Positions 18,801 to 59,188 of a DNA stretch of 64,000 nt are shown here, piece after piece. Source of the stretch: Buxus sempervirens. Taxonomy: Eukaryota > Streptophyta > Magnoliopsida > Buxales > Buxaceae. Under the pieces are notes generated by a model that saw only the letters and a list, made by a program, of their open reading frames with translations, was not told the origin of the DNA and did not search any database. How positions within the stretch are numbered: position 1 is the first letter of the stretch; each line of letters opens with the position of its first letter. A program made the translations under genes and the position numbers. Where the stretch lies: NCBI GenBank assembly GCA_947561395.2, contig OX387193.1:13516001-13580000 (forward strand), in the 5' to 3' direction.

Positions 18801-21693
18801 CCATGCGATCTTTAGTTTATCCTCTATTTTCGATTAAAATTGACCTAATTGCCTTTATTTGTTATTATTATTATTTTTTGTTTTAATGATGATCCGTGAT
18901 CTTCTGTTTTCTGCCTTGTGCTGTTTATTTGAGGTTTTGTGTTAGATGGATAGGTAAGTTCTTTCAATTTAAGGGTTTGTGATGTCTCTCTTTCAATGCA
19001 ATTAGGTTTAACGAATGGTATTTTCTGCAGATTTTGACTGGTTAGATGTTATCATTAACTACAATGTGATTAAACATGGCCTCAATTTTTTTTAAAGCTT
19101 TAAATTAATTGGAAAGAAGAATATGGTCATGTTGTTTATTGTTAGCTATTGATCCTGTTTATTCATGTTTTTTTTTTTTTTCTGTTTTCAAGTAATGGGT
19201 TTCTGTGTTTCTGATCTGAAACTTTTTCAAATCAGATTGAATTCGGAATTCGGTTATTCATTCGGTTGAATATCGAATTCGAATACCAAATCAGATTTTG
19301 GTATAGAAGATCCGTCGGATTTCGGATCGAATTCAGATATCGGTAATTTTTTTTTCGGTTCGAATTTGGATCATGGTAGATCTATACCGTATTTGACCGA
19401 TTGTCACCCCTAGTATAACCTCTTGGGATCACCTCAATCCACATGTTGTGCAACTTCTGGAGTGCCTGAATCTCTTGCCTTCAGTTTGATTCAACTGATA
19501 TTAACATAATTCACCATGGATGGGTGGGACATTTGCTGACACTTTTTAGATTTGGCCACAAGATACCATAGGATTTAACACAAGGGATGTTTATTATTAC
19601 CTTTAGTTTTCTTCATCTAGGAGTTAAATTGCATATGCCTAGATGTTGTGATTTGAAAAGCATGAAATGGTATTCTTCGCGTAATGGGATGCAAGTCTTA
19701 CTGGATTCCTTAGCTTAAAACTCTCCAAGTCTTTAGTTCAGTATTATTAAAAATTCTAAAATAAAAACCAATTCTACTTAATTATTTGATTTCCTTTTCT
19801 GTTTAGACTGTATCTTATGAGAAATAGTAGTAGTAGTTGTTGTTGTTGTGTGTTTTTTTGGGGAAGAGTAGGGATGTGAATGGGCTGGCTGTGTTAGCAA
19901 GTGTTCCATCCCATGTGCTGTGATAGGCTGGGGTATAATAGTTTTTCTGGTGGGCTAGCACAACCTATGAGAGTAGGGATGTGAATGGGCTGGCTGTGTT
20001 AGCAAGTGTTCCATCCCATGTGCTGTGATAGGCTGGGGTATAATAGTTTTTCTGGTGGGCTAGCACAACCTATGGCATGGTGAGGCATGACCCTATTCAT
20101 GCCTTATGCTGGCCCAACATGGCCAATTTTCACCTCTATGGTCCCCAAATGAAACGTCAATGGTATGATATTGGGACTTCAAGGATTTTAATAGGTGCCC
20201 AAATGAAAATTTCATTCCTGCTTTGAAAACTTAAATTTGTTGTCATTGCACTGTAAGAAAGTGCAATGTGTAGCTAGAGTAATCAGAACTTTATCCTCCT
20301 TTGATGGGGTTTTGTGTTTATTTCTTGTTGGATGCTTGCATTGTTGAAAGCTAGTAAGTTAAATTATTCTTATGCCTTGATGGTACGCTAGTGAAATTTT
20401 CCTCAACTAAATATTATAATGGTATTCTAAATGAAGGTTCATTGATAGGCTTAAAGGCGTCATGCTTTTAGTCTTTAGATTGTCAATAACGCATAACATG
20501 ATGGGTGTTGAACTAGTCTTAACCCCAAATTTCTACCTTCTGGTTCAACCAGTATGAAGGTTCTTAAACAGATTTATAGTTATCATAATTTTAGATCATC
20601 AATATTGTTAGGTTGGGTTTCCCGCCTACATGGAGGATGGCCTTTCATTGGTGGATCCTATGTGAGTTGTTAAGTCCATTGGAGATATGGCCTTTCACCC
20701 AACATCAAAGACTTTTTGAGGGTTTGTTTTTCAAAGAAAATTCTTGCTGCTTTGTTGAAAGAAGATAGAGAAGAAGAGGTTGTGTTTTGGGAGAATGCTT
20801 AGTGGCTGAAAATAGAGAGAAGAGACCTCAAAACCCAGTTTTTGGAGTTACAGTCCAGTTTTTATTTTTTATTTTTTATTTTAAAAGGGAAACTCAAAAG
20901 AAGCAAAATGAATTGAAGACAGAGAGACTACGAGTGAGCCAGCCAAAAAGGAAGATAAAAGAAAAGAAGGGAAGACGAGGAGAAAGCCCAAATAAAACAA
21001 TGAGGAAAAAAGAGAGAAGGGAGTAGAATACCTCATCATGGAGAGGAGATAAGTGCTTGAAAACAAAAAGTAAACAACCAGAAAGAAAACATTATGTACC
21101 TCATTTAGATTAAAGGAAAAATTGCACACGTGTTCTCTTCGTTCACATCTCTTGACAACCTTGTGGACACGGTGTTGCCTTAACAAGTTTTTCTGAACGA
21201 AGCAAATAACATGCTGTGATTTTATAGTTAAAAAAAATGGTTTTTTAGTGGATCACAATATTTCTTGTTATTGTTATTTTATTTTTTGACAAGTAATGAA
21301 ATTCCATTAATAACAAAAGGGCGGGAATACAAGCCCACAAGATGTGGGTAAACAGTTCTATGCTCAGTTTGTGATCCAATGGTGATCCACAAATCAGATT
21401 GATTCAAGATCTTAATGACTTGGTAAATCTCTGATATACAGGGTAACGACGTGGGGACACAGTACAGATCTGGAATATACTTCTACACACCAGAGCAGGA
21501 GAAAGCAGCACATAATTCCATAGAACAACAGCAGAAGCTCTTGAACAGGAAGATTGTTACTGAGATTCTGCCAGCCAAAAAGTTCTACAGAGCTGAAGAA
21601 TATCACCAGCAATACCTTGCAAAAGGGGGACAAAGTGGTCTCAAGCAGTCAGCTGAGAAGGGATGCAACGATCCTATCAGATGCTATGGGTAA
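12858..21693 (+). CDS. MSRA: Peptide methionine sulfoxide reductase A, plastid-type, two exons
   Basis: Exon 1 ends at 13364 (CAG|GTAAAT) and exon 2 is 21442-21693 (TACAG|GGTAAC). The join reads ...[19 protein letters not shown], the canonical MsrA sequence in phase 0. MsrA reduces methionine-S-sulfoxide in proteins. The catalytic motif GCFWG (Cys 94 counting from 12858) and the C-terminal [11 protein letters not shown] with recycling cysteines are present. The AQGPDDDV segment before the domain is typical of the plastid subfamily. From 12858 the product is 252 aa, close to plastid MsrA length. From the internal ATG at 13050 (MDSSSSS) it is 188 aa, close to cytosolic forms. The first 64 residues include a very hydrophobic run ([17 protein letters not shown]), which is unusual for a transit peptide, so the true start is uncertain. 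The 8077-bp intron is packed with transposons. Confidence 0.9.
13365..15197 (+). other. MSRA intron, 5' part without recognised elements
   Basis: This is AT-rich intronic sequence. A direct repeat of about 60 bases around CGTCAGTAAAAAGAATGTCT (near 13814 and 13965) is the only structure I noticed. No gene is supported. Confidence 0.5.
15331..16591 (+). mobile_element. 5'-truncated L1-type LINE (zf-RVT end), inserted in the LTR
   Basis: The target duplication AAAGTCTTTCTA is present at 15319-15330 and 16592-16603. The insert ends in an A-rich tail (ctgataaaaaa), as expected for target-primed reverse transcription. The coding part encodes the zinc-binding reverse-transcriptase tail: [20 protein letters not shown], then [20 protein letters not shown] and IWKRLL. 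The frame upstream ([13 protein letters not shown]) runs up to 15449 and resumes at 15770 beyond a TRIM insertion. The 5' end is lost, so only roughly the last 900 bases of the LINE are present. It is dead on arrival. Confidence 0.85.
15450..15764 (-). mobile_element. TRIM retroelement with 131-bp LTRs, nested in the LINE
   Basis: The LTRs are 15450-15580 and 15634-15764 (TGTTGAAAGCC...AATTCCAACA). They differ at 3 of 131 positions. The 5-bp target duplication ATTAG is exact at 15445-15449 and 15765-15769. The 53-bp interior holds GGCTCTGATACCA, the complement of an initiator-Met-tRNA primer-binding site. It also holds a CCCCCCTCACGC stretch, which is a polypurine tract on the minus strand. 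The element therefore points minus. It has no coding capacity and looks structurally whole and young. It is the youngest layer of this stack. Confidence 0.93.
16910..18108 (-). mobile_element. Gutted Ty3-type LTR element, minus strand
   Basis: The 5' LTR is 17693-18108 (416 bp). It is followed on the minus strand by a TGGTATCAGAGC primer-binding site at 17690-17679. The interior is only about 550 bp, with a purine-rich tract before the second LTR. That LTR begins at 17125 and is truncated near 16910. The interior retains a piece resembling the C-terminal chromodomain end of Ty3/gypsy integrases (motif KGGY in a [12 protein letters not shown] context). Gag, protease, reverse transcriptase and most of integrase are missing. 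It is a fossil with one very large deletion plus further decay. It belongs to the same LTR family as the solo LTR at 15198. Confidence 0.75.
18159..19412. mobile_element. hAT-like element with short TIRs, non-autonomous
   Basis: The left end is TAGGGTTGGCAATGGGTCGG. The right end, read on the complement, is TAGGGGTGACAATCGGTCAA. Subterminal parts on both sides are rich in TCGGAT/ATCGAATTC-type repeats. The flanks ATCTAACT and GTATAACC agree at 5 of 8 positions, consistent with an old 8-bp duplication. The interior (about 18400-19150) is unlike the ends. It has a 66-codon plus-strand frame at 18541-18741 with an Ala-rich start and a T-rich downstream stretch, reminiscent of a captured first exon with intron. 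I do not recognise its source. Confidence 0.6.
19865..20074. repeat. Exact 105-bp tandem duplication
   Basis: The unit starting AGAGTAGGGATGTGAATGGG at 19865 is repeated base for base from 19970 to 20074, each copy ending CACAACCTATG. No differences are seen across 105 bases, so the duplication is recent or is an assembly artefact. It lies in the MSRA intron. Confidence 0.9.
20075..21269 (+). other. MSRA intron, 3' part
   Basis: Nothing gene-like is supported. A purine-rich stretch (gaagatagagaagaagagg, then aaaagaaaagaaggg) spans about 20755-21030. It creates long but compositionally trivial open frames on both strands. Confidence 0.5.
21270..21420 (-). mobile_element. LINE 3' end, severely 5'-truncated
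   Basis: The sequence attttttgacaagtaatgaaattccattaataac closely resembles the A-tail junction of the LINE at 44092 (tttttataagtaatgaaatttcatt). Read on the minus strand it is a LINE terminus followed by A-rich sequence. Only about 150 bases remain. It lies just before MSRA exon 2. Confidence 0.45.
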
Positions 21694-38510: not shown

Positions 38511-38984
38511 AGTTTCTGATGCATTTTAAACCAGGCTTGCTCATCTCTTGCAAGAAGGCACGCCTACCTAAATTTTAAGGAATCTGTCGAGCGATTTCAC
38601 TTCTAACATCCATTTTGCAGTCATCATTACTAATAAGAATAAAAACCATGATAAGAATGTCAAAATTCCTCAATAAATTTACACTTTTTAAGTTCCAATA
38701 ATCCAAAACAAATCGGCTGGAAGCAGGACCAGAAAGCGCGAGGACAACACAGCCTGAACTGGGAGAATTTGACTCGTAGATCCAGTGGTGCCTTAACAGT
38801 AAGGCAAATCTCCTTCCGTGCACTCTGAACCGAATCACTCCCATGAATTACATTCCTGCAAATCTCCTACATAAGAAGTTTAAGGCACCCTCCATAGAAG
38901 TACTAGTCAAAATACGATTTTAAGGTAAGTAGTCACAATATTGCAGGAATAGTCACATCGTTCCATTTTCTATCTGCTTTATAG

Positions 38985-39371
38985 GCTTGTTTTCAGGCTA
39001 CCTTGTGGCACATATGTAAAGAAAGGAATGGTAGGATCTTTGAGGAGAGGAAGACCACTATTGAAGATGTATCTATGTCAATTTGATGGCAACTGCCTCA
39101 GGGATATGGGGCATGAAGACTTAGGAGCTTTTTGGAATCTGAAATTTTGAGGAATTGGAAAATAGTATGTTCCGTAAGGATTGTTGATGGTGGGGTGGGT
39201 TTTTGGAGACCTCCAAAAGAAAGAAATATCAAACTAAACTTTGATGCTCTTGGGCAATCTAGGTTCCTCTGAAGCTATATTCATGGACTCGAGTACTAGT
39301 GTTGGGTATGGATGTGTGTCTACGAGCCAGATCCATCTAACCTCAAATCCATCTTACCCCCAACACGTAGG
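38985..39371 (+). mobile_element. LINE fragment (zf-RVT / RNase H junction)
   Basis: The plus strand encodes LWHICKERNGRIFEERKTTI and, further on, WRPPKERNIKLNFDALG. These match the IWKERN-RIFE and P----KLNFDG motifs at the zinc-binding and RNase H junction of plant LINEs. A hAT MITE interrupts it at 39372. A later RNase H-like piece at 40610 may be the same insertion. Confidence 0.65.
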
Positions 39372-40038
39372 TAGAGTTGTAAGTAGGGTGGATTGGGCCG
39401 GTTTTGATGAGTTCAAACTCAACTCAATCTAAAAACAGTTGGCCCATCACCTTGGCCTGCCCTAAACCCAAACCTAAAATTATTTCTTGAGTTCGGACTG
39501 GGTTCAGGTTGGCCCAAATTAATGGGATCTATCAAGGATCTAATGAAATATAATAGTAAGTCTATAATATATTTTAGTATAGGAAAGCAAAAAATTGAGT
39601 TTTTAAATTGCATCATTTCTAAGATTTATTGACCAAATTATAAGACAACACATTCAACATTATGAAAGAAATACTTACTGAAAATGTGGTCCTTTGTAAA
39701 TCTCAAGTCATTATCCATACAAAGGTCACATTATCAATTTTCCTTAATCTTGAAAAGGTTGTAGGTTTGAAGCTTTATACTCAATTCTATAGAACCTTAT
39801 CTATTGGGAATTGATTGGAAATATAGAGAGGAAGGGCTTGGAGTTTGAAAGAACTTAAGAAGAAGATGGGGTTTGTGGTAAGTCATTTAACCTTGGCTTT
39901 ATATAGTTCGGGCCTTTAGGGTTTTCGGGCTATGAGGTGCAAGTCCAAGCCCAACCCAAACCCAAACCCAAAATAAAACCTTATATCGTGCTATTATTCG
40001 TGTTGGGTTAAGCGGGCCGAGCAAAACTTAAAGCTCTA
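39372..40038. mobile_element. hAT-type MITE with 8-bp target duplication
   Basis: The left end is TAGAGTTGTAAGTAGGGTGG. The right end, on the complement, is TAGAGCTTTAAGTTTTGCTC. The flanks CACGTAGG (39364-39371) and CATGTAGG (40039-40046) match at 7 of 8. Subterminal GGCCGG and GGCCCGCTTAACCC units are typical of this MITE type. It is 667 bp with no transposase. Confidence 0.85.
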
Positions 40039-40609
40039 CATGTAGGATACAAGGGCTCAGTTGAGAAGTGTACAAATTTTGGATACATATACTAGGATTT
40101 GACTGAAAAGTCCCAAAATAAATATCAGTAAGGTGGATAAGAAGCCGAGCTCTCTTCTTATTTGTTTATGTTTTCGTTTTTGTCTCTCTTTTTTTTTTTT
40201 TGATTCATTGCTTGCAATATATGGTTCTGAGACTGTCTACTCTCTCTTTATAAAAACTATTGCCTTTATAGATTCATTACTTGCAAGTTGATTGTTTGAT
40301 ATTTCTTTTATCTTTTCCCCTCTTCGATCTTTGACTGTCATGTCTGGAAGGATACGAAGGATCTAACACATATCGAGTAATCATACCCATTTCTTGTCGT
40401 GTCAACACGGGTACTTCGAGGTTATGTAAGGTATCTATGTAACATAGGTATGAAGTAGATGGAATGTTGAAAGATAAAATGGGCACTTCCATACATGCCT
40501 ATTTGGTCAAGTTGAAGAAGTTGAGTCCGTACATGCAGTACTACTTGCACTTCTTATTTGGTTACGAGAAAGGAAGGCTTTAGAAACTAGTTCATCGAAG
40601 GGAACTCAG

Positions 40610-40990
40610 CAACTATCATTCTTTGGACAAGGGAGGAAGGGGATGGGTTCTTGGAAACTCTTACATCTAATTTGTGTTGCTAAAGCTCTTGCAATCAAGT
40701 TGAATGCTTCATTCAACCAAGTGCCTCAAATGACAAATGATGTAGCAGATAAATTGGCAAAAAGCATGAGCCAGGAAAGATGATTTCCTCATTGTCATTC
40801 CATTTTTATATGAGTTATAATAGATGTAAAATAGCTATGTTATTAGAGGTTCTTTTGTAGGAGTTGGGTTAGGCAATTGTTGTCTTTTCCAATTGTAAGA
40901 CCTATATATTCTTCCTCTTTGAATTTTACAATATATTCTTGTTACTGGTCAGAACAATAATAATTTTGAATTCCATGTCGACAACATATA
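40610..40990 (+). mobile_element. LINE 3' end (RNase H C-terminus and tail)
   Basis: The frame LICVAKALAIKLNASFNQVP followed by TNDVADKLAKSMSQER matches the C-terminal RNase H end (N--AD-LAK) of plant LINEs. An untranslated tail of about 200 bases reaches to about 40980. It is probably the distal part of the LINE seen at 38985-39371. Confidence 0.6.
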
Positions 40991-41005
40991 TATTAATAAT
41001 AACAA

Positions 41006-42717
41006 GGCAAACATTCAACATTTTTTTTTTTGGGTGACCAAAAGCCAGGATATGCGCTTTCATTAACAAATATCAATAGTACAAAAGCATTGGCCATTAG
41101 CCAGGGCCATACGAAAACCACAGAAATAGAGAAAATGTAGGTTAACAGGACATCCATAAACCCAAACAAAGCTGTTGAAATTTTTGACCAAATGTCAGAC
41201 CTGTTGCCGAAGCCAGATAAAATTACCTGAAAAACAAGGGTAGAGTCTGATGGAGGGTCTATATACAAACGGATTCAAGTTCCTATCAAAGGAGATAAAA
41301 GCACTATCATCAAGGATGTGATAATGGATTGGAGAGTAATCGGCAAACCGATACTCGTCCAGGTGAAGAAAAGCAACATCCATAGGTTATGAAAGATGTC
41401 ATGGCATCCAACATCTCCCCTCAACAAAACCTTCCTATAAGACCGACCAGAAACAAAGACAAAAACCAATGCATGAAACCCGATCTCGCCGGCAGTACCT
41501 CTCGCCGGCAAGGTACTGCTGCATCAAAACCATCCACATGGCAGGACCGGCCAGAACACAAAAAAACCTTCGACTAACAACCACAATACGACCGAAGCAT
41601 CCAGCAGACAACATAATAAACCAATGAAGAGAATAAGCACATGGATTGCAATACTTGACGATCCACCAAGGATTAACTATCACCCCCCCCCCCCCCCCCC
41701 CCCCCCCAAGCCCCACTGTCCCCATCAAGGTTGTCCGCTTCTCCATTCTCCATTTCTGTAGCCATTTGCAAAGGGTGCAAGTTGGCGACCACCAAACATG
41801 TACGAGCAATAGCCCTAAACGCTCAAGAGAACAGGACGTGCGTTAATGATTCTCACTAGTCGGACAGTGAGAAACCCTATCGCAAATGCCTCTTTGCAAA
41901 ACCCTAACCCTAATGCATTACCCACCCACTGAAACCCTAACATCACCAGTGCATGCTTGTTTGACGGAAAGCAAGTCAGTTTGCACCCTTTGCAAATGGC
42001 TACGAAGACATAGGATCAAGCGGACGACCTTAATGGGGACGATGAGAGGGGGGTTGCCGATGGTTAATCTTTGGTGGGTCATCAAATACTGCAACCCTTA
42101 TGCTTATCCTCTTCATTGGTTTGTTGTGTTATCTACTGGATACTTCGTATTGTGATTGTTAGTCAAAGGTTTTTTGTGTTTTTGGCCGACCCCGGCGTGT
42201 GAATGGTTTTGATGCAGCAACACCTTGCCGGCGGGATCAGGTTTCATGTGTTGATTTTTGTCTTTGTTTTTTATCAGTCTAGTAGGAAAGTTTTGTCAAT
42301 AGGAGATGTTAGATGCCATGGCACCTTCCATACCCTCTGCTTGTTGCTTTTCTTCACCGGAACGAGTATCGATTCGCGATTACTCTTCCACCCCTCATTA
42401 CGTCCTTGACAATGGTGTTTTTAACCCCTTTGATGGGATCTTCAATCCGTTTGAATATGGACCCTTCGTCAAACTCTACCCCTGTTTTTCAGGTGGTTTT
42501 ATGTGGCTTAGGCAACAAGTCTAACATTTGATTAAGAATTGCAACAGCTTTATTTGTGTTTATGGATGTTCTATTACCTGAATTTTCTCTATTTCTGTGG
42601 TTTCTATATGGTTTTTGTGTTATCCCTAGATAATGGCTAATGCTTTTGTACTGTTGATATTTGTTAATGAAAGCGCATAGCTTGGCTGGTCACCAAAAAA
42701 AATGTTGAATGTTTGCC
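41006..42717. repeat. Long imperfect hairpin (inverted repeat, arms about 780 bp)
   Basis: The left arm (about 41006-41785) is the reverse complement, by eye at roughly 85 percent, of the right arm (about 41980-42717). The outer tips GGCAAACATTCAACATT and AATGTTGAATGTTTGCC are perfect complements. Just inside, TTTTTTGGGTGACCAAAAGCC mirrors GGCTGGTCACCAAAAAA, so LINE-like A-tails point outward at both ends. Internal landmarks repeat in mirror order (CTTTGCAAATGGCTAC, ACCTTGCCGGCG, ATGGATGTTGCTTTTCTTCACC-like). The spacer is about 190 bases. A poly(C) run of about 24 at 41684-41707 interrupts the left arm. CAAACATTCAACATT recurs as a direct repeat at 42728-42742. A transcript across it would fold into long dsRNA. 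Confidence 0.85.
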
Positions 42718-42742
42718 TGGCCAAAAACAAACATTCAACATT

Positions 42743-44091
42743 ATTGCTTAATCATTTAAGCAAAGGAAATAAATCAACAATATGGACAGTCATAAATAGC
42801 CAACAAATGAAAAAGTAACCTCTTCTTCATGAGTCCCTTGTTTTTTATGCATTGTGTCACTTGTCAAGTAAAAGTTTGAAATTGATAAAATGCAAGTACA
42901 AACATTTTGCACCCACTAAATTGGTGTTGGCCATTTTTACACATAGCCACGTAATAAAAGTTTGACAAAGCAGAAGGAAAAAGTGCTGTTATTATCTTAA
43001 GATTGCCAAAATTAGCATTATTTGCTAAACCATTAAGTCCCATTGTGTAGTTTGGCAAAAATTTTCAACAATTCCTTTATGGATAATTTTCTGTGGCACT
43101 AGACTCCCTTGGATCTCCTAGCAAATGCTGCACATGGATCCAGAACATTGATTTTACTAAAGATATAAGTTTCATCAGACAAGCCACACTAGGAAAGCAA
43201 AAATATATATATATATATATATCCACAACTACAAATCTAAACGAACCTCAACTAAGGTGCCTAAGCATCTTGGACATGGCGTTAATGAGACCATCTGAAC
43301 CTTGGCATAAGCTCAACAATATTGCTTGGTTTCATGCTGAGACCGTATTTGGGTTTTGTAGCTTTGGCATTTCATGTCTGGGGAAATTTTAGCAGCTACA
43401 AGTTTTTGTTTCAACCATTTTGACGTCCATCCCTCGTCTCGTGTCTGCTTGCATTCCTAATATTTTTCAACTTTGGCACTATAGAGTATATTTTCAGCTT
43501 GTTTACATGTGAACTCGTAAGTGTTCTATAAAGAGTATAACTACCAAAAATGACTAAGTTACATTATTTGCAGAGATCAATAGACATCCTAGAGATCTTT
43601 GTTTATGTCTTCTCTATGAAAGCTGACATGCCTTAGGTTTTGCGGACATGGCCTGTCACGTAATGAGTAGGGAGGAGGGAGGCAAATGCAATACACAACA
43701 CCAAAACCACAATAATAAAGCCATTCCATATTGTTTCATGTCTCACTCAAAATGGAGATCAGTTAGGCAGCAGAGATGTGTAGAATGATGGCTAAGGCCA
43801 GAAAATAGAGACTCACAGGTGATTGTAGATTCCACTTAAAACTTCTTAAGATCTCACTAAAATCTAATCTTTGAATCTTAAATTTCTTTTACAAGTCTAG
43901 ATAGGTCCTCTCAAAGTATACTCAACATATAATATACTGAAAAGAAATCATCTAGACATAGAAAAGAAAATATCTAGCTTCCAAATAGAAAGGAGAATTT
44001 CCCTCACATACTTCGTCCTGCCCACCAATAAGCTAGAAGAGTTGCTGAAATTCTTGCTAATGTTAATGATCATGAAAAACCCCACATCTTA
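42743..44091. other. NDPK-relic intron sequence without recognised elements
   Basis: AT-rich sequence. A (TA)n run lies near 43204-43222. The 99-codon frame at 43093-43392 has no family resemblance. Confidence 0.4.
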
Positions 44092-45140
44092 GAAATTTTT
44101 TTATAAGTAATGAAATTTCATTGAGATAAAAAGGAACGTATGCATAAGGAATATACAAGAGACAAGACAACTATGACAAATGAGAGATAACAAGAAACAC
44201 TCCTAAGGCCTTTTGACACTCATTTGAAACATCAAGGTCAATCAAGCAAGAAGAAATATCACAAAAGATCAAATAATGCCTTCTAGCCTGCTTTTGCTAA
44301 TCAATTCACAATGTTATTTGCTAACCTTCAAACTTAATTGAATGAGATGTTCAAACTATGCAGCAAAAATCTAGCTAATATGATACGCTCACAATACCTC
44401 CATGGTCCAATTTCATCCATCCTCAACCACTGCAAAATGTTAGTGGCATCCCCCTCAATCATAACATCCTTGAACCCTTCCCTGTAAATAAAACGCAACC
44501 CCATGAAGAGTGCCATAAGCTCAGCGCGGGCAGAATCAACAAAAGTACCAATAATTGAAGACTAAACACCCCACCTACTCCAAATGGCCCAAGATTCCCT
44601 AATAAACACCCATCAATATTAAGTCTATTCAACTCTTCTTTGGGTGACTCCCAATGTCACAAAGGAGCATTCGTAAATAGTGATGAATAGCACACTATGT
44701 TCCAATTCCTCACTCTACTACTGCCACCCTGGTGGACTCTATCACAAATTCACAGCCTCTCTAGAATAGAATCATCAAATAATCAAATATTACTCTCTTT
44801 CCATATATGCCACAAAACTACATGGGTTTAGAAGCCTGTAAAATATATGAGCCTCTGCCCCAACCCAAGAAAAGTCCACTGATTAAAAAAAATTCAATCA
44901 TTGTCCTTGGCTTAACCCAAAATCTGCCCATCACCCTCCAAATTCCACTAGCAAAAAAATAATGTAAGGAAAGATTATGAATAAGTTCTCCCTGGCACAT
45001 ATAAAAGAGACAAATGTTAAGAGATTAACCATTTTCTTCTATTTTGGACATGGTCCATAATTTTATCTTATAGAGCAAAATAGTCCAAACAAATGCTTTC
45101 CAAACAAACACCTTGATCTTAGTGGTTTCCATAAAGAGGG
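44092..45140 (-). mobile_element. L1-type LINE fragment, RNase H and zf-RVT
   Basis: On the minus strand from about 45140 down come a zinc-binding reverse-transcriptase tail (FASGIWRVMGRFWVKPRTMI) and an RNase H piece (ALFMGLRFIYREGFKDVMIE, then GDATNILQWL and GPWRYCERI). A 3' end follows with ATTTCATTACTTATAAAAAAAT at 44116-44092. The 5' part of the LINE is missing and the frames are interrupted. It is an old insertion inside the stretched NDPK intron. Confidence 0.75.
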
Positions 45141-46284
45141 ACAATGGCAAGGAACATTAGCCACATTCATTATACATCTGTGTACCATAAATTACAGAGA
45201 TTATCACACAGAAAATATTCCAAGCTTCCATATACCAATGTGCACAATTATCATATTTTAATACCATTAGAACACCATATCCTCTCCTCCCATCCAAAGA
45301 GGAAAAAAGCAAGAAAAACACTCACCCCAAGCATATTCAAACATTTATTTATTTTTTCCTTTTACCTCTTGACTTCGTGTTTTCAACCAATGGATGGTAA
45401 AATGTAAATCCTGAGGTCTAATGAAAACAACTGTATTTATTGAATTCACCTGCCTCTTAACTTTGTGCTTTCAGAATTCTCACACTGCCATAGGGCACAC
45501 CATTGTCTTCTTTACCTCTTTGACTTTTTGGCCCCATCAATAGAGTGAGAAATATATTATTAACAAAGAAATTGGATCTAAAAAAGGTATTATGTTGGTT
45601 GCTAGCATTACATGACCCTCCTCCTACACTTGGTTTTAGGATTGGCACACCCAATTGTTACTTCTTGGTATAATATCGAATTATCCCATTTCTTCTACAA
45701 ATAGTACCTGCTGTGGTTCCATGAATGCAAGAGAATACAATATCTGGAAAAGTGCTCCATCCACACTGTTGTCACATGAAAAACCCTTTATATTATAGGG
45801 TATGAAATTTTCATATCTTGCCATGTAGTCATGTACACCAATGGTGTAAAATAATTTCTGATAATGCTCGCATTGGCCATCACTTGCAGGTAGCTGATAT
45901 AGGTCCACAAAAGGGAAAACAATTGCAAGATTTACATTCCAATTCACAACTTCTTTTCTACCAACTATTATTTACACATTTATATATACATACATACATA
46001 CATACATATACATACATATATATATATATATATATTAGTATTCTATTTATGTTCTTATTTGCTTCTAAGCCCTTTCCATTGGATTGCTTGTGCTTGGCAA
46101 TGCTGATACTCCTTATTTTGCAATAATCCTAACATATATGTGTATAATGATATATTGCTCGTGCTTCGGCTATATTTACTACTTATCTTTTCAATGGTCT
46201 GAAATATATAAATTATTATTCTAATGATAGATATTTGCCAATTAGATATTTTACATTCCTACTATAAATATATCTTTTGACCAT
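45141..46284. other. Relic-intron sequence with a (CATA)n(TA)n microsatellite
   Basis: The microsatellite occupies about 45980-46034 (tacatacatacatacata then tatatatata). The left end of the Harbinger element whose right end is at 49477 may lie in this stretch, but I could not identify it. Confidence 0.45.
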
Positions 46285-46442
46285 GGTTTAAAAACTCGGT
46301 ATCGGGTTTGGTATCGGTCTAGCCCGATACCGAGTTGTATCAACCGATACGTCCAATACCAAACCCGATACCGACCGATACTGGACCGATACTGACCGAT
46401 ACCGAGTTGTATCGCCTTATGGCGATACCGATACTTAAAACC
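46285..46442. mobile_element. MITE with GGTTTAAAAACTCGG / CCGATACTTAAAACC ends
   Basis: The 158-bp element starts GGTTTAAAAACTCGGTATCG and ends GGCGATACCGATACTTAAAA-CC. Its interior is a series of CCGATAC and GAGTTGTATC units that can pair with each other. Relatives lie at 28965-29095 and 51151-51920. Confidence 0.65.
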
Positions 46443-49400
46443 TTGCTTTTGACAATACCATAGAGTTGGTGATAAATTAGACAGGGGATCAAGAGGCAAT
46501 ATTTATTTAGTTGATGGTGAAGGAAGTGAAGAAGAGAAATAGATTAATGACAACATCTAAGAAAAGAAGATGGAAAAGAATTATAGAGGAATGTTATAAA
46601 AGGACTAGGAAAAAAATATACGATGAAACAATTCCAGAACAATATAATAGCTTGAGATCAATATATAGAGTTCACACAATTGAGGGAAATACCTACATGC
46701 CTTGGTTGCAGATCCAATTTCTCAAACTGTTAAAACACCTGATTCAGTATGGGAATCTTATTTTTAGGTACATTTTTTATTGTTATTTAATAGTTCTTTT
46801 ACATTCATAATTACTTACACAATAAGTTAATTATAAGTTATTATTTTAACGTAGGTACACCCAAAAGCAAAAAGGTTTCAAAAGGTTGGTTGTCCCATGT
46901 ATAATCAATTTTTCATCATCATATATGGAGACACCTTTGCTTCTGGGGAAATGGCTAGTTAAAATAATCAAAATGTATCAAATAGTAATGAAGATTCTGA
47001 TCATGGATAAGAGTTTAATATCTTGGCACACCTTTCTCTCCTACCTCATTGACAATTGAGTTTGATACCCATCAAAAGCATTTCCCTTCAAGTCATGAAA
47101 GACAACAGTCACGATCTCAAACCCAAGGTATCCAACATCGGTCGAAGAGTCGTTCAAACTTCAAAGGGATCGGAGTTGTTTGACGCTATTCGTTATATGG
47201 GTGATGCAAGCTAGGAAATAAACAATGCACGTGCTCAAAATTCATCATCAAGTTCAACTTCTAGTATTGGACCATATTCGATGACAAAGTGTAATTTAGT
47301 TCTTAAAAGCATGGAGGGTTGTAGATGGGAACTTGTTTGAAAGCAATTGAGAAAATGGAAAATAAGATGTGGCAAAAAGGCATTATTGAAATGTCTGATA
47401 AACACAAAAAGGGTGGTTGGTTAGGCTTTAGACTTATATATTGATATGTCACTTTTGATAGTTTAGAAATATGTTAGGATTGGAATTTTGTTTTTGTGAT
47501 GATCAGACTTTGTTTTAGATTGGTATTTTATTTTGTTACTAGATCATAGTTGACTTTTTGAAATGAAAGATTGCATTATAAACTTTTGATTTTGCATATA
47601 TCTTATGATGTTCCAATCCTGTTAAGGTTAACTATGATAGTGTACATTAATTGGTTCTTGTTAATTATTATGATATTATGTGCTATCTCAAAATTTTTTT
47701 TTGTTGGGCCTTGTTATTTTGGTTGACCTTTATTGTTAGAACAATGATACAGATAGAGATTCAAAGTCAGAAATTGTGCAGGTTTTTAGTCATTTGAGTG
47801 ACAACATGTCAATTGACTTTTATGACTCAAATGAAGAAAGATTTTTGAGAAATGAAATGGTCGCAGTAGCTGCTGCTGCTGCTGCTGCATATCATGATAG
47901 ATACATTTGCAATGTTCCATACAAAGATGATGTGTAACTAGGTCTGAATATGTTCATAATGTGGTGTATAGGAATCCAGAGAGATGTCCTAACATGTTTA
48001 GGATCAAATCACATGAATTCCTTAATTTATGTACTACACTAAAAGAGAGAGACCTCCTTCATGATACACGGTATAAATCTATAGAAGAGCAAGTTGTAAT
48101 ATTTTTATTTACATTAGCATTAGCATATAATTCCTCAAATGGAAAAATTGCAGATCGTTTTCAACATTTAGGAGAGACTATTTCTCATCATTTTTGTAAA
48201 GTTTGAAGGCAATGATCCGATTTGGGAAAGAAATTATCGTCCCATCTTTTTTTGTACAAAATCCTCCTAAAATTCAACACAATCTCAAATATTACCTATG
48301 GTTTAAACTAAATTTAATTATCTTTTGCCATCTTTATTTTTATTGCAATTTCTTTTGTTAATAATTATAAACAAAAAGTATATTTTTTATAGGATTGTAT
48401 TGGAACAATTGATGGAACTCATACTAGTGCCAATATACCGTCCAATAAACAAATACCATATACGATATGGAAGGCAATGATAACACAAATTGTTATGTGC
48501 GTCTATTCTTTTAATATGCGCTTTACTTTTGTTTTAGCTGGGTAGAAAAAGATGACACATGAAACACGGGTTTTTCTTAATGCAATTATTAAGCCTAAAA
48601 TATATTTTCTCACTCACCAGAAGGTTTGTAAAGTTATTACAATTAGTGTTTACTATAAAAAAAAAACAAATAAATGATATCTTATAACCTTTTTATTCAT
48701 TTATTAGGTAATTATTATGTGGTCGACTCCGGCTATTGCAACATGCAAAGATACTTGACATCATTTCCTGAAAAACAATATCACCTTCAAGAATTTAGTC
48801 GAAATAGTCTTTAAGCATCAAGAGGAAAAGAGTCATTCAATAAAAAGCATTCATCTTTGCGTAATGTCATAGAATACCATTTTAGGATTTTGAAAAAAGG
48901 TTTCCATACTCTCTTTAAAGCAACAATAACATATCATTATTGCTTGTTGTGCATTACATAACTTTATTAGAATGCCAAGTATATGAAGATAATTTATTTC
49001 TAAAATGATGAGGAAATGATGTTCGAAGATGATTCAGCATATTCAAGTTCACAACAACCTATAGAGATTGATGTATCTGTTATATCTCAACGAGAGATGT
49101 CAACATTAAGAAACTCAATTGCAAGTAAACTAGCCAGTGCATATTGATTAAAACAATGGTGATATATCATAACTTTTTTTACCCATTTGAATGTAATTAA
49201 ACAACTAATTTTATAAAACTTTTATGTTATTAGACTTATATTAGAATGTATGATGGTTATATCATTAACTAAAAAGCACCAATTGTTTACAATAGTTTTT
49301 TGATAGCATAAAAGCAATTTTTATACTTTTGAATTACCAAACATGTTTTTTGGCTTCTTAACAATACAAAAAAAGTTTACCAAACAATTTTGCTTCAATA

Positions 49401-49477
49401 TAATATTTTTTGAAAAGTGAAAAAGTTACATGATTACTTTCTTGCTTTCAAAAGCAAAAGCATTACTGAACGGAGAC
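46443..49477 (+). mobile_element. PIF/Harbinger element 1, both ORFs decayed, plus strand
   Basis: ORF1-like pieces (46510-47440) encode a basic start (MMVKEVKKRNRLMTTSKKRR) and later FIIIYGDTFASGEMAS and ELFDAIRYMGD, the C-terminal part of the Myb/SANT-like partner protein. ORF2 pieces (about 47800-49000) encode an HARBI1-like transposase: RCPNMFRIKSHEFLNLCTTL, then QVVIFLFTLALAYNSSNGKI, then DCIGTIDGTH (first catalytic Asp) and DSGYCNMQRYLTSF (second). Stops and shifts break both, so it is inactive. The right end GCAAAAGCATTACTGAACGG-AGAC stops at 49477 and is followed by TAA. The left end was not found. Confidence 0.75.
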
Positions 49478-51150
49478 TAAGGCTGCATTTAGCATTGCTT
49501 CTAGAAAATTGCTGTAAAAAGCAAGAAAAGCAATTAGATTGCTTTTACTTCTATGAAAATCTTTTCATGAAGCAAAACTGGGTTCACATTTGCTTTACTG
49601 CAGAAAAGCATGTTTGGTAACATCAAAAGCATAAAAATTACTTCTTGACAATATCATTACAAAATTAAGTGTTACGTAGCAAGCCTTAAACCAAATTCTA
49701 CATGCTTAAAAAAGTTTGCCAATTTAAAGCATAATACAAAACTATTTACTTAAATACTTGTTAAGGAAATATAAAAGCTTCCAATGTTTCATTAAATTGA
49801 CATTCACCATTGCGTCAATCCATGTGCACTAGCCAATATATTTATAATTGAATCCTTAAGTTTTGACATTTCTCATCGATATTCAGCAAATACATCTATC
49901 TATATATATTGTTGTGAACTTGACATACTTGCTCATCCTCATATTATGAAAAAAAAAATTTCTTAACTACTTACATTCTAATAAAATTATGTAAAGCACA
50001 ACATGTAATAGCTATTTGTTGTTGCTTCATATGGAAACATCATCTTTAATGTAGAAAACCACTTTTTTAAAACTCCAAAACAATATTCTATAACATTGCA
50101 CAATGATGAACGCCTATGACTAAATAATTCTCTTGCTTTTACAGCCTAATGTCTACTTCCTCTATATTCTGATTGCGATTTTGTTCCCCATGATATGGAG
50201 TCAAATAACCTTCCATGTTAGAGTACCCAAAATCTTCCAAATAATCCTTACCTGAAATAATAAATTAAAACTGAGTTATATTTTTAAAATTTATTTCTAT
50301 ATTAATATATTACAATAATATTTGCTTTAAAAACCTTCTAATGCATGAGGAAATGCATATTCTGGCTTAGTAACAACATCCAAAAAAACCCTAGCATTTT
50401 GTGTTGTTCCTTCCCATCCAACTAAAATAAACGTAAAACGCATATCAAAAGAATATGCAGACATGACATTTTGTCTTGCGGCTGTTTTCTTCCTCGACAT
50501 AAAATTTGCTTATCCAATGGTACATTGGCACTAACATGTGTTCGATCTATCATCCCAATGCAATCCTACATATAGTAGAGTACTTCTTGTTAGTAATACT
50601 TCATCTAATTATAAATAGATTAATATTAAAATTAAATTAAATCATACCCATGGATAATATTTAGGATAGTGGTGAATTTCAAGTGAAGTTTCTACAAATG
50701 AAGGTGAAACTATTATTTCTTTTCCAAAGCGTATCACTGCCTTTAAAGCTTTCCTGAAATGTCGAGAAATAGTCTTCATAAAGTATTGAAATTGCTCTGC
50801 AATCTTCTGATTGGAAGCCTTGCGTGCCAATATCATACACATCCTAAGCATATCAACACATCTATCTGAAATTCCATATACTACTTTATGAACATACTCT
50901 CTACCCCAAATAATACATCATTTCTGTATGGAGTTGTCCTTCAAAATAGCTTTTAAGTAGGTTGTCATTTCTATCCCTTCCATGCTTCCACTGACTTCAA
51001 CGCATTTGGCCAGTGAATATGGTACAAAGCTTGAGGATGCAAAATGTTGAGTAAGCATATCATTTCTCACATAACTAACATCAACCATATAGCGAATGGC
51101 TTCAGAAAAGTTAGAACTCCTTGACCGATTTCCTGTGTGACGCCCAAGGT

Positions 51151-51920
51151 TTTAAAACTTGGGCTCAATATCGGTCAGGCCCAAGTCCGAGTTAACTCAG
51201 TCGACATGGGTAGCATCAACCGAGTTAATGCCGTGTCGGGTCCAGTCGACCCAGCTGACCAAAAAAAATCAAAATCAAAATAAGACCTGTAGGAGCAAGT
51301 CTTTGTTCTTTATTTACACAAAAAAAAAAAGAAAGAAAAGAAAACAGAGTTGCTCTGTAAGGGAGATGGTGAGAAGAAGGAGAGGAAGGTCTCTCCTAAA
51401 TATGAAAAGAAGTTGATGCCCAATGGGTGATCAAGTTTCAGTTCATGTTCCAAGAGCTTCTGTCCTCACACACACAAGAGCTTCTTCTTCTTCTTCTTCA
51501 ATTTTTTTTCCTAAATTTTTTGGAAAACGACTCTTCATCCTACAAAAATCTAAATCTGCAAAAATAAAACTCCAATCTGTTATTAGATGGAAGAGCACTT
51601 CAAAATAAGGGTTTTTTTTTTTTGGGTGAAAATAAAGAAGTGGGAGTGAAGATGGGATCTCAAGATTGCCAGAAATGGCGTGCTAAGTTCCACAAAGGCT
51701 TTTTAAAGCCTCTATCAAGTTGCCCAAGTCGTCTAATGCGATACCGAGTCATCTCAGGCGATACATTTCAGTATTACTCGAAACAACTAGTACTTGAAGT
51801 CTTACCGAGTTCAAAAGCTCCTAATTGAACCTTTCGTATCAATGCTTAGTATCAGCTCACTTCGAGCCAATACCGAGTTGACTCAACTAATACTTCTCAG
51901 AATCAGCCGAGTTTTAAAAT
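51151..51920. mobile_element. MITE/TIR element inside Harbinger element 2
   Basis: The ends are GGTTTTAAAACTTGGGCTC and, on the complement, CATTTTAAAACTCGGCTGA. The subterminal parts are rich in CCGAGTTAACTCAGTCGAC and CGATACCGAGTC units, as in the 46285 copy. The element separates two parts of the host ORF1 (TPSGR before, RSSNFSEAIRYMVD after), so it inserted into the transposon gene. The interior (51260-51620) is unrelated, with poly(A) and CTTCTTCTT tracts. Confidence 0.7.
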
Positions 51921-52489
51921 GATGGCAACACCTACCACTAGGAGTTTTAGACCTTAAGCAAAGCTATTCATGATTAGAAGCACCTAGATTTGATTGAGTG
52001 TTGATCTCATTACTTATTGAAGTAGTCCTGACGGATGTATCAAAATCCTCAGATAAAGCTTCATGAATATGATCAGACTCCTTATTACTATCTGATACAT
52101 CTTAATTGTCTGCACCTGCCATTTCTCTATATGCAGATGTATCACCAAAAATGCTCACTACTGATCATAAAAAGGTCAACCTGCTTTACGAAACATTTTT
52201 GCTTTGGGTTATACTTGTATTATAGAATAATATGTGATCAACATTACAACTAAATGTATTAGCAAAGGGCATTGTTGATAGAGGGATAGAAGGCATCTAA
52301 ATGATTATTAGCTATGATTAGTATATCTAGTAGTTATTAAAGGTACGAGAAGATAAAAAGCATTCATTTAAATGAAAGTACTAAAGGAATAAGCATGACA
52401 ATCCCGCAGCATCATTTTTATACAGCACCAAATTTAATACTTAAAAGGAAATTACAACAATCATTAGGATGGAAGAAGTTGGGACAGTA

Positions 52490-52812
52490 ATAAGAGGTCA
52501 CAATAATCAATTGCTTGGAGAGAAATAATCAATTGCTTGAGAGGGCTGTTTTGGGTTTGATGCACAGCTGGTTGACTGGGCAAGTAGTGGGATCTAATAT
52601 ATCTATTGAGGAATTTCTGTTATGTAACAACTTCTATGATCTAGGACGGGGATGTTCTGGTTGATGTTCGTAGTCCTTGGGTTCTAGTCTTTGAGTCTAT
52701 GTATTGACTTATTTAGAACCTAGGCATGGGTACACTATTTGTGTACCGTGTTTGCTATTTCCTTCATTTATATCATTTCCATCTTTTTACTGATCAAAAA
52801 ATAAATAAAAGT
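52490..52812 (+). mobile_element. LINE 3' end inside Harbinger element 2
   Basis: The frame RAVLGLMHSWLTGQVVGSNI and FLLCNNFYDLGRGC, followed by a terminal stretch ending TTTTTACTGATCAAAAAATAAA, closely parallels the tail of the LINE at 16591 (TATTACTGATAAAAAAA). It is a 5'-truncated LINE tail. Confidence 0.6.
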
Positions 52813-54371
52813 ATATGTGCGTAAAAGGCATCATTGGATATAGTGGTTCCTCAAATGAACTAAACAATATAATATGATGCTTATGAACTGCACAATACCT
52901 TAATCCTGGTAGCACACTTGATATTCTGATCTCATGAAAAGATGTCTCATTGAGTTGGATATGTGAAGCTCTAATATTTCAGGCACTAGCGGTTGAAGTT
53001 CTACAAGAATCTCCCTTAAGGAGTATTCAAGCTCTACTAAACTATATTCCCTTTTTCCACTTTTTCTTTCTTTAATACTGTAATCCTAGATAAATGACAA
53101 CAATGCAACGTTCATGCATCATTAAGTTTTTGGTATGCCATATCAAAGATGAAAAATAGAGATGCTTAAAGGCCTACAAAATATCATGTATGAGATACAT
53201 GAACTTACATTAAAGATATATAGAATGACCACCATACACAAAGCTGTTAAGTCACCTTGAGGTTATCATAGAAATATTAGATGCAAATACATAATCCCAA
53301 TTTTTCTTCTCCTCTTTCTTTTCTTTTGTCATGTGAGATTCAATATTTCATTACCCAAAATAACAGAAAACTTCCAGAGAAAACAAGATTCCTATATGTT
53401 AAAATAAAGAAGTTATTCTAAAAGTTTAATACATTGATCAAAGAATGTCTCATACAACCCAAATATTGACAAACACGTGCAGATGGCATTCACAAGACAT
53501 CGAATAGAACATCTCAGCAACACATCTGCAAACAGAATGGTCATCTACTATCATTCCTAATTTTGAATCAGAAAATAGTAAGAAAAAAGAGTAAACATTG
53601 AAAAGGGGTCTTTTTTAATACATTAGAAGTGAAAATTCGACAATATAATGCAGAAACCAGATTTTGGTCAAAGTTCAGCACTTATTTTTCCACTCATTTC
53701 CTATTGAAACTACTATCCACTCTCTGTTGGTTGAATGTAATGCAATAAAGACAAAAATTCCAGCATTAGAAGTGTCTTGATAGAGTGTATGTTAGATAAA
53801 ATCCAACAACATGCAACCAGTCATTCCCACATATCATAGTACAGCAATGACACAATCCTATGATCAAAAGGGATCAAGGATCCCAACCAATTAAATTAAA
53901 TTAGATTTCACTTATTAAAATCTGTCCGTTTAATCAAATATGTGGGCTCAGGAGATGGCAAAACAAAGCACAAAATTTTGCTTATGCTTGACCAAACATA
54001 TTAATACTTCTACTTTAAGACTTGGCCGACTATAGTAGATAAACATGTCTTATTGCTTGCGCTAAATACCTCGAATTTAGCCCCAAGATATGGCCGGATA
54101 ACTCATACACCAAAATGGGGAAAATTATCAAATACCAGAAATTTATAGGATATTCGATCAGAATCATTTGCAATTACTCATGAAAAATATGAATCAGTCA
54201 AACAGATACATATCCCTAAACAATCCATAATAAGAAATCAGAAATCCCGCTTAAAAAATGCATAAAATGCACCATAAAGACATACATTCAAAAGAATCCA
54301 CCATCACTACTAGAAACCAGAAGCAATAAGTCACCAATAATAATCCGGAAAGACCGGTAACAGAAGAACTC
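52813..54371. other. Harbinger element 2, intron-like part without recognised coding
   Basis: AT-rich sequence between the probable leader exon and the ORF1 remains. I see no further domain. Some of this could be later insertions that I could not delimit. Confidence 0.4.
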
Positions 54372-55664
54372 ACCTTTTAAAGAAAGCTGGATAGACAGGT
54401 TGAATGAAGAAAGTTGTCTGGGAGAGTGGATTTTTCAAAGGGGAATATCGGTGGTGGTGAACAGAATCGGTGGAATAAGGGTTTAAATGGGGGGAAACAA
54501 CAGAGAACCTTGTCACTTGCTGTCTCTTGCTCGACTGTTCAGTTTACCAGACTGAACTGAACGATTGATGACGGTTGTGTCTCATGACTCTCATCACGGC
54601 AACGCTTATATGTGTTTCTTGTTGCTCATCTTCACTGCAAGATGAGAAGACAAAAAAACCAGAGAGCAAATGGAAGTGAGAAGCGAAGATAGTAGAGAGA
54701 AATATCTGCCATTCTAAAAAGCAAAGAAGCAAATAATTAAAAGCCAAAAAAAGTTTTTTTCTTTGCTTCTCAAAAAAAGCAATGAGATTGTTTTTGGCTT
54801 CATTGTGAGAAGCAAAAGCAACCCTTAACCACAGATGCTCATTGCTGGAAAAAATTTGATTTTGCTTCAATAAGCAACTCCAAACGCAGCCAAAAACAGC
54901 TTCAAAAATATAATCATATCTTTCATTCAGCATTTAACATCATATGCATCAGATGTAAAATGCTGAACAAAACAAAGATGCATACATCAACTTAACAGGA
55001 CTATAAGATCAAAAAATCATACCACGTAATCAGAATTAAAATATAGAACACCAAGTTACCTCTCGATTTCAACTGCAAAATCATCACGGATGGTATCGGA
55101 AGCAGAGTCCAAATGATTTGTGGCTCCAATTATCTTTCGGCCTGTTGTAACGATGTTCTTAACCTCCAACACTATTGCAACTACAGGACCTGAGATAATG
55201 TACTCGACAAGCCCATAGAAGGAATGGCTTTCCAGACAGATCCTCATAGTGCTTCTCGGCAAAATCCCGCTCCACACTCATGAACTTTAAACCTGAACCC
55301 AAATACCCAGTTACAGAGACAGGCTGGACAACCGAAATATCACAGAATGAAATGAACTTTTCAATACTAAAGATCATATATACCCTTCAAGGAGAAACCC
55401 TTCTTCTCAAATTTGCTCATAATGTCACCAACCTAAAACAGATCAACCGATTAGATGAGCCGATCGAACCATCTTTTCTTGAACAGATAAAAGTCCATCT
55501 GACATTCAGATTCAAAAAAAATCAATCATTTAACTGAGGTTGAAAGCAAACCAGAGATTGTTCAAAAGCCAGTGACGGAAAACAAGCCAAATTATTTTCA
55601 TGCGCTTCGCAAATATATCCAATTAGAGAGTTACAAACGCAGTTAATACAAGAGAATATGGCAT

Positions 55665-55862
55665 TTACGAATTATCGACACCTTCCACGGTCTGAAAGCG
55701 ACGAATAACTAGAGAAGTAAAATGCAAGTGAGGATTAGGTGAGGCGGAAACCAGCCTGGCTTGATCACGATCAATGTCTGCTTCATCCTCTGAATCTTCT
55801 CCAAACACTAATTTTCGGAATTTTTTAGCCCTTTTAGCGACAGATTCTCTTCTCTTTGACAT
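55665..55862 (-). CDS. Short hypothetical ORF, 65 aa, Lys/Arg- and Asp/Glu-rich
   Basis: The frame starts MSKRRESVAKRAKKFRKLVF, continues GEDSEDEADIDRDQ and ends at a stop after VEGVDNS. The charged, bipartite basic-then-acidic start looks like the N-terminus of a nuclear protein and is less random than neighbouring frames. It lies where the missing first NDPK exon would be expected upstream, but it bears no resemblance to MEQTFIMIKPDG. It may be a first exon of an unrelated gene whose remainder was lost, or a chance frame. No function is assigned. Confidence 0.3.
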   Translation of the reverse strand: MSKRRESVAKRAKKFRKLVFGEDSEDEADIDRDQARLVSASPNPHLHFTSLVIRRFQTVEGVDNS

Positions 55863-57214: not shown

Positions 57215-59188
57215 TTGATAATGAACCCCAGGCATTCTATGTTCTTTGACATTGAGGAAAAGGAATTTCTTAGACCCTATTCTGACCCAACTTTTTCTGA
57301 TGATGTGATCCAATCCCCATATGGTAACCCTTCCATCCAAGATCATGAAATTGAGTTGCCTTCCCAAGAGATGGAATCATCTTCCCTATTAGCTAGGAGC
57401 AACAAGAGGAGTAGAACCTCTGGTGTGTTGGCTTAATTTTACAATTGAAAATATAGGGAGTGAAGAGAGGGTAGTTTGTAACCACTGCAAAAAAAAAAAA
57501 AAAAAAAAAAAAAAGTTGTAAAGGAAAAAGTAGTACAAGCCACTTGCAACAGCATTTGTAGAAATGCCTTCCAAAACATGGCCAAAAAGATCCTAGGCAA
57601 GCCCAAATTTCCAGCAGTAGTGTTAATTTTGGTAATTTTGTTTTTAATTAAGAAGAAACTAGGCTTGAAATAGTAAAGTGGGTAATACAAGAAGAATTAC
57701 ACTTTATATTAATAGAATCTAAAAGATTTAACTGTCTAATAATCAAATATCTAGCACTAGGATTTAAATCCTTCTCACGCCACATTTTAAGAAAGGATGC
57801 TATAAAATTATACGAAAAAATGAAAACCAGATTAATAGAAACTTTTTCAAACAATAACTTTTAGGTAAATTTAACCTCAGATATTTGGACAAGTAAACAA
57901 TAAATAAGTTATTTAGCTATAACTGCACATTATATAGATGAGAATTGGAGTATGAAAAAAGAATATTAACTTTTGAAGCACTAGATTCTAGCCATTATGG
58001 ACTAGCTATAGCAAATACTATGACACAAAATATAAGAAAATATAAAATACAAAAATCAAATAATGGCTCTAGTACTTGATAATGCAAGTACTAATAATGT
58101 TGCAATAAATATATTAAAACAAAACTTAAACTTAAATATAGATAGATGTTTATTTCATGTTAGGTGTGCTTGTCACATCTTAAATTTAGTTGTGCATGAT
58201 GGCTTAAAAATTGTCCAATATCATTTAACAAATATTAGAAATACAGTAAGATATTTAAAACAATCTAACACAACTACTAGAGAATTTAAAAATTATTGTG
58301 CAAGTTTAGGAAAGCAACCTAAAAAAATTACCCTAGATGTTGAACATAGGTGTAACTCAACATATTTAATGCTAGAAGCTGCACTAGAATTAAAACAAGA
58401 ACTTACACTATTTTATGAAACAAAAGTGCCTCAAAGTGAACTAATAGAACTTGATTGGCAAATAGCAGAAATTTTAAGAGATTTTTTAAATTATTTATCA
58501 TTGGTTTATTACCCAACATCCCCGAGTATTTTAAATTGTTTATATCAAATAAGTATTTGCTTTAAACAATATAGAGACATGCCCGTTGCTAAGGATATTT
58601 GCCCTGCAATGGAAGCTAAAATTTTAAAATATTGGCAAGATATACGTAATTTATATTGTTTAGTTACTACAATGGACCCTAGGATTAAATTAGGAGTGTA
58701 AGATTTAATAGACGAAATAAATGAGAATATGAATTCTTCTTTTCAAATAGATATACGTAAAATAAGAACCCTATTAGAAAGACTTTTTTTCTAAATATGA
58801 TACTAATTGTAGCAAACAAAGTCAAACTCAGACCCAAGAAGCACTACCAGATAATTCCCCTTGAAATTTTTTAAATGGGAGAAGAATGGGAAAACAACCA
58901 GCATCTGGTAGTGGGGGATCATCTGAATTAAGGATTTATTTAGAAAGCCCCCCAATACTGTTACATGCTATGGAAGAGCATAGTTCTTTTAACATTTTGA
59001 CATGGTGGAAGCAAAATCAGGTTAGTTATCCTGTGTTTGCCACCATAGCACGTGATCTACTAATGGTTCTGGTGTCCACAGTTGCATCGGAATTAGCTTT
59101 TAGCACAGGTGGACGAATAGTGGATGACTACAAGAGCAGATTAACGCCGGAGATGGTGCAAGTATGTGCTGTCTTACAAATTGGTTAA
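57215..59188 (+). pseudogene. hAT transposase (BED zinc finger, RICESLEEPER-like), decayed
   Basis: The order is as in plant hAT transposases. An N-terminal acidic region (57215-57436) is followed by a BED-finger remnant (SEERVVCNHCKK near 57460-57490) broken by a 26-base poly(A) run at 57489-57514 and a stop before KCLPKHG. Then come LTSDIWTSKQ and TAHYIDENWSMKK (57870-57960), and the catalytic-core piece at 58063-58701 (ALVLDNASTNNVAINIL, CACHILNLVVHDGLK, LDVEHRCNSTYLML). Last is the C-terminal dimerisation domain at 58886-59188 (NILTWWKQNQVSYPVFATIA, ASELAFSTGGRIVDDYKSRL). Several stops and shifts separate the pieces, so no active transposase is expected. Confidence 0.88.

Follow-up and report, generated by a model that had tools for sequence, protein, structure and literature searches.

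Two stretches similar to nucleoside diphosphate kinase (NDPK) genes lie some 16 kb apart in a 64,000-nucleotide segment of Buxus sempervirens DNA, and the question is whether they are unrelated fragments or the parts of one gene split by mobile DNA. The segment, hereafter the window, corresponds to C19:13516001-13580000; positions are given in window coordinates, preceded by W where confusion might arise. The original prediction had joined the NDPK parts at 55.06-55.43 kb and 38.8 kb into one minus-strand gene, and order, splice borders and phase all support this assignment. Exons 2, 3 and 4 of a cytosolic-type NDPK are found on the minus strand in the correct order, bordered by GT-AG introns and in agreeing phases. 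The 3' border of exon 3 (...GAAATCGAGAG/GTAAC at 55060) and the 5' border of exon 4 (...TTTGCAG/GAATGTAATTCATGGG at 38855) are both consensus splice sites. The joined translation of exons 2-3-4, with XX at the frameshift, has as best matches in PDB 1u8w (E 6.8e-46), 1vya (2.7e-45) and 1pku (5.6e-44), which are plant NDPK chains, from Arabidopsis, tomato and rice, 1u8w being nucleoside diphosphate kinase I. The latter is a whole protein, and keeps glycine and proline residues lost by the window copy.

On sequence grounds, the window gene is very probably a duplicated, unprocessed cytosolic NDPK1 pseudogene, the block-duplication partner of an open gene located at C9:40.947 Mb; NDPK1 belongs to the common housekeeping genes. 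Broken frame here and an open parent-type gene elsewhere, together with the three retained GT-AG introns, by which the exon-intron structure of the parent is kept, are the features of a duplicated pseudogene. Only intron 3 is enlarged, introns 1 and 2 being ordinary, as the three introns measure 319, 91 and 16,204 bp in the window and 264, 120 and 715 bp (calculated from exon coordinates) on C9. The expectation that an open paralogue would feature a short intron at this position is thus borne out, and so is the claim that a single intron, holding repeats of several families, accounts for the distance between the two parts. The short intron of the paralogue, and the extra length made up of mobile and dispersed repeats, are what distinguishes an intron expanded by transposable elements.

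The partner gene (L009, G000:C9:40.947 Mb) was identified by scanning the genome (676.5 Mb, 247 contigs) with Pfam NDK; 19/19 candidates were scored, and 11 matches were found at 6 loci. By sequence reading, only the C9 gene and the window gene are NDPK1-like; the remaining four loci read as other NDPK types. L009 resembles the window copy in having four exons with the same borders and phases and an MsrA gene nearby, and differs from it in the open frame and in the length of intron 3. Among the five other NDK loci, both window parts are nearest to the C9 gene. The best ungapped placement of exon 4 matches 38/48 bases in the C9 gene vs 26-30/48 in the four other loci, and that of an exon 3 stretch 52/69 bases vs 34-44/69. 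A closer paralogue for one of the two parts, which would have pointed to distinct origins, was therefore not found in the Pfam-scan census.

Both ends of the gene had to be redrawn. The first exon, reported as lost, is probably present as a remnant carrying a 16-nt deletion. It lies on the right strand, 319 bp upstream of exon 2, and reaches a score of 36 in local DNA alignment, vs a null maximum of 26.8; none of 1,919 random 1-kb pieces of the window reaches 36. Motif search for exon 1 gave no match, and the remnant surfaced only in a scored peptide scan and in DNA alignment. The net 16-nt deletion results from the gapped alignment; an ungapped local alignment spans 40 nt to 55747 without deletion. 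At the opposite end, ARKEI, where the last exon had been drawn to stop, is not its end. With a net 29 nt deleted past this point, the exon extends as far as HHWIYES, and is followed by a 3' untranslated region alignable to that of the partner.

The neighbourhood of the two genes is collinear. Comparison by blastn of the window plus 10 kb to 200 kb of C9 gave 41 rows, six of which were used as anchors; the other 35, few of which were studied one by one, were left out as being repeats or lacking a clear place. The anchors fall in one order and relative orientation at three loci, MsrA, a weak stretch at W24.7 kb, and NDPK1. MsrA stretches W13031 and W21379 correspond to C9 40963035 and 40961706, the weak stretch W24735 to C9 40959486 (68.9%, E 7e-9), and NDPK exons 4, 3 and 2 to C9 40948611, 40947854 and 40947498, respectively. 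Further MsrA matches were found on C1, C14, C10 and C4 (15 matches in total, 14/14 candidates scored), and no Pfam NDK match is located within 6 Mb of them. Synonymous (dS) and nonsynonymous (dN) substitutions per site are 1.07 and 0.112 for the MsrA pair (186 codons), 1.20 and 0.130 for NDPK exons 2-3, and 1.40 and 0.111 for all the 115 NDPK codons. Taken singly, exon 3 has a dS of 1.33, and dS is not computable for exon 4. The larger of these dS values are near saturation. Similar dS values across the two pairs, and the same order and orientation near MsrA, point to an old block duplication. Collinearity beyond NDPK1, between W60-73 kb and C9 40.905-40.918 Mb, was also considered, and rejected as due to repeats, because translations of W70.6-71.8 and 72.3-73.15 kb show no gene, and several rows at W59.9-63.4 kb match two C9 places. 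A second NDPK pair, formed by L010 (C19, ~2.99 Mb) and L012 (C9:47.88 Mb), looks NDPK2-like by eye; its location, again on C9 and C19, fits homoeology of the two contigs and suggests shared duplicated blocks.

The repeats found in intron 3 are listed in Table 1 together with the exons. They total ~9.4 of 16.2 kb, or ~58% of the intron, if the Harbinger-type stretch is counted by its outer extent. Candidate relatives were scored in the proportion of 40/1,351 for W39369-40045, 40/188 for W41005-42718, 40/857 for W46274-46446, and 40/352 for W52514-52810 and W54036-54703. Identity to the nearest relatives among the matches listed ranges from 98% to ~71%, and growth of the intron looks therefore stepwise. 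The lower end of the range is represented by the remnant of a long interspersed nuclear element (LINE), which has one relative on C21 among the matches listed, in two pieces at 71% and 76%. Judging from the nearest listed copies, repeats with 98% relatives would have been inserted after constraint was lost, and those with ~70-80% relatives before. Intron 3 probably grew as separate insertions followed one another during a long period, some preceding and some following the loss of constraint. The sequence of events originally proposed, expansion and then decay, fits the oldest insertions and not the youngest ones. A hAT miniature inverted-repeat transposable element, also part of that proposal, was not identified, and the 54.70-54.89 kb interval has no match among the matches listed. 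Within the 668-bp repeat, a stretch on the minus strand (54640-54370) resembles by eye a 5' untranslated exon with GTGAGT as its donor site, and may represent either a captured promoter or the leader of the repeat itself.

Table 1. Coordinates of the NDPK1 pseudogene, of the repeats hosted in its third intron, and of the neighbouring synteny anchor
Feature	Position	Strand	Remarks
Exon 1, probable remnant	55752..55786	-	35 nt if ending at CTG/GT; 51 nt in C9 partner
Intron 1	55433..55751	-	319 bp; alignable in part to that of the partner
Exon 2 (VGDIMSKFEKKGFSLK)	55384..55432	-	87% identity to L009 across 54 nt
Intron 2	55293..55383	-	91 bp
Exon 3	55060..55292	-	76.6% identity to L009 across 252 nt; Pfam NDK E 2e-14; 1-nt insertion in KPF codons
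Intron 3	38856..55059	-	16,204 bp; GT...AG borders; repeats of several families inside
Exon 4 (NVIHGSDSVQSARKEI ... HHWIYES)	38770..38855	-	29 nt lost (net); stop codon at a changed position
668-bp dispersed repeat	54036..54703		at least 5 other places at 90-93% among the matches listed
~297-bp dispersed repeat	52514..52810		closest relatives listed for any of the intron's repeats; at least 34 other places at 85-98% among the matches listed
Two facing decayed Harbinger-type elements	46855..52214 (outer extent)		transposase remnants 47949-48913 (+) and 50905-49999 (-)
~160-bp dispersed repeat	46274..46446		at least 39 other main matches at 79-94% among the matches listed
LINE remnant	44105..44823	-	RNase H-like stretch 44337-44561; RVT_3 E 1.2e-6, 28.9 bits, above cut-off 21.6
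Right hairpin arm	41977..42702	+	one copy of a dispersed repeat (~0.73 kb) with an A run at its end
Left hairpin arm	41021..41833	-	second, inverted copy of ~0.73-kb dispersed repeat
~680-bp dispersed repeat	39369..40045		at least 39 other places at 81-90% among the matches listed
MsrA gene, synteny anchor	13031..21690	+	aligned exon stretches ~13.03-13.37 and 21.43-21.69 kb

Two large palindromes are found in the intron. The first had been described as a long hairpin, and its inverted structure is real; what changes is its nature, as it is read as a pair of distinct copies of a dispersed ~0.73-kb repeat, inverted with respect to each other, rather than as one hairpin element. Searches with W41005-42718 gave at least 86 rows, including 3 self matches. 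None of the other places listed is longer than ~0.8 kb, and they correspond to both arms, on opposite strands; the best long ones among the matches listed are 79-80% identical to the arms, vs 77% between arms in blast (84% over aligned columns). The origin of the structure by a single inverted duplication is disfavoured for these reasons. Flanking the inverted pair (41006-42740) are GGCAAACATTCAACA and the reverse complement of this sequence; a direct copy, CAAACATTCAACA, is located at 42728-42740.

The second palindrome is made of the two Harbinger elements of the original prediction, both recovered here as Harbinger-type copies, which turned out to face each other and to be decayed. Their arms align only in parts, with 73-77% identity over aligned columns and 66-73% in blastn. 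A relative on C9 has matches to DDE_Tnp_4 and Plant_tran, below cut-offs, and an adjoining reading frame at 46511 is Myb_DNA-bind_3-like, similarly below cut-off (E 0.0043). Distances between palindrome arms, calculated by the Kimura two-parameter method, are 0.18 and 0.28-0.34, and provide a weak dating, because the arms could already have been different when inserted, and the mutation rate of repeats may be higher.

The window copy is damaged at several positions. Exon 3 has gained 1 nt in the KPF codons, the frameshift noticed at the outset, and exon 4 has undergone a net loss of 29 nt; the net 16-nt loss in exon 1 is a probable third frame-breaking change. The position of the stop codon is altered. 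Four glycines are replaced (G77V, G99D, G103D and G110E, in the numbering of the alignment used for outgroup comparison), again in line with the lesions first described, and the histidine of NVIHGSD, the catalytic residue, is retained. Differences between the window and C9 copies number 11, 13 and 51 at first, second and third codon positions, and overall dN/dS of the copy is ~0.1. Both figures indicate that most of the divergence accumulated under purifying selection, and that decay came late. Polarisation by three outgroups assigns 12 replacements to the window copy and 4 to the C9 copy, leaving 5 undecided. C9 and the three outgroups share the same residue at 69 columns; 10 of these are changed in the window copy, and one is unreadable there. 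Conversely, C9 departs at a single column from a residue on which the window copy and the outgroups agree. A rough hand estimate, derived from an excess of ~8 changes over ~250 nonsynonymous sites, puts the neutral substitutions that followed the loss of constraint at 0.03-0.06 per site. The gene would hence have died late, after a history marked mostly by purifying selection. It is conceivable, and in our opinion rather improbable, that the copy was functional for most of its life with a multi-kb intron 3 holding the two palindromes, and that the swollen intron helped silencing and thereby determined which member of the NDPK1 pair would disappear.

The MsrA gene in the window, which is open over the 186 aligned codons, has an intron of ~8 kb vs ~1 kb in its C9 partner, and this intron contains a LINE zf-RVT stretch (E 1.3e-18). 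The enlargement of an intron in this gene too suggests, on the basis of two genes, that growth may concern the whole region, and not the dead gene in particular.

The distance between the NDPK parts, and the somewhat higher divergence of exon 4 at synonymous sites, are what could be expected if two unrelated fragments, derived from separate duplications, had been brought by chance 16 kb apart on one strand. This is very unlikely, as the two exon sets are complementary and do not overlap, splice borders and phase are exact, the same locus is the nearest relative of both parts among the loci found, order and orientation are collinear with C9 through MsrA, and the Pfam scan found just one other NDPK1-like locus. 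Equally scarce credit is given to the view that intron 3 was long in the ancestor and was shortened in the C9 copy, without any expansion in the window. No empty site was recovered, and the 715-bp partner intron gave no blastn alignment to intron 3, so that the choice between growth here and shrinkage on C9 rests on repeat content. The dispersed repeats in the 16.2 kb, some of which have 98% relatives, must be later insertions, and introns 1 and 2 are similar in size in the two copies. Low dN/dS and the retained NVIHGSD histidine would be compatible also with a live gene able to splice out the large intron, its lesions being sequence errors. It is highly improbable that two frame-breaking indels, a probable third and an altered stop are all of this type, and the changed invariant columns, numerous in the window copy and limited to one in the C9 copy alone, tell the same. 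Retrotransposition of a processed NDPK copy has a practically negligible probability, as GT-AG introns are retained and the neighbourhood is collinear.

Besides the missing empty site, other observations weigh against an NDPK1 duplicate whose third intron grew by insertions. About 42% of intron 3 has no repeat assignment, a remainder which is not thereby unique. A shared flank of at least 5 nt is absent at 3/4 repeats examined, and measures 5 nt at the fourth; the 13-nt direct copy beside the hairpin, located 25 bases past its right end, falls beyond the reach of this test. Synonymous differences are 10/12.3 in exon 4 vs 37/61.8 in exons 2-3, which is not significant (Fisher p 0.19), and exon 2 alone has a dS of 0.69. 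In the six-frame peptide scan the exon 1 remnant ranks second (31), below a 17-residue minus-strand stretch at W20520 (37). The latter is taken as a chance match, and the remnant is preferred because both its strand and its distance from exon 2 are those expected of a first exon. An SR-rich reading frame at 8.9-11.5 kb is unmatched in the 200 kb of C9, in a search run with low-complexity filters on. For the window gene, the Pfam scan used as paralogue census lists exon 3 and no other exon, and a lone NDPK1 exon elsewhere may escape it.

Growth of introns to many kb by LINEs, long terminal repeat (LTR) elements and other repeats has been described in grapevine, where Arabidopsis and Populus counterparts are shorter, and prediction programs may split one gene into two at large introns (Jiang and Goertzen 2011, PMC3058033). 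Introns enlarged by transposable elements, and the risk of one gene being taken for two, are common to the two systems. Grapevine data refer to expressed genes compared between species, whereas here a decayed duplicate is compared to a partner in the same genome, and no LTR pair is dated. Intron growth driven by transposable elements and the splitting of gene models being already published for grapevine, the window gene is one more case, and involves no new mechanism. It provides a worked example, with an in-genome control, of a gene that can be mistaken for two unrelated fragments.

Upstream of the pseudogene, at 58063-59188, lies the remnant of a hAT transposase, with matches to hAT-like_RNase-H (5.1e-7) and Dimer_Tnp_hAT (1e-21).

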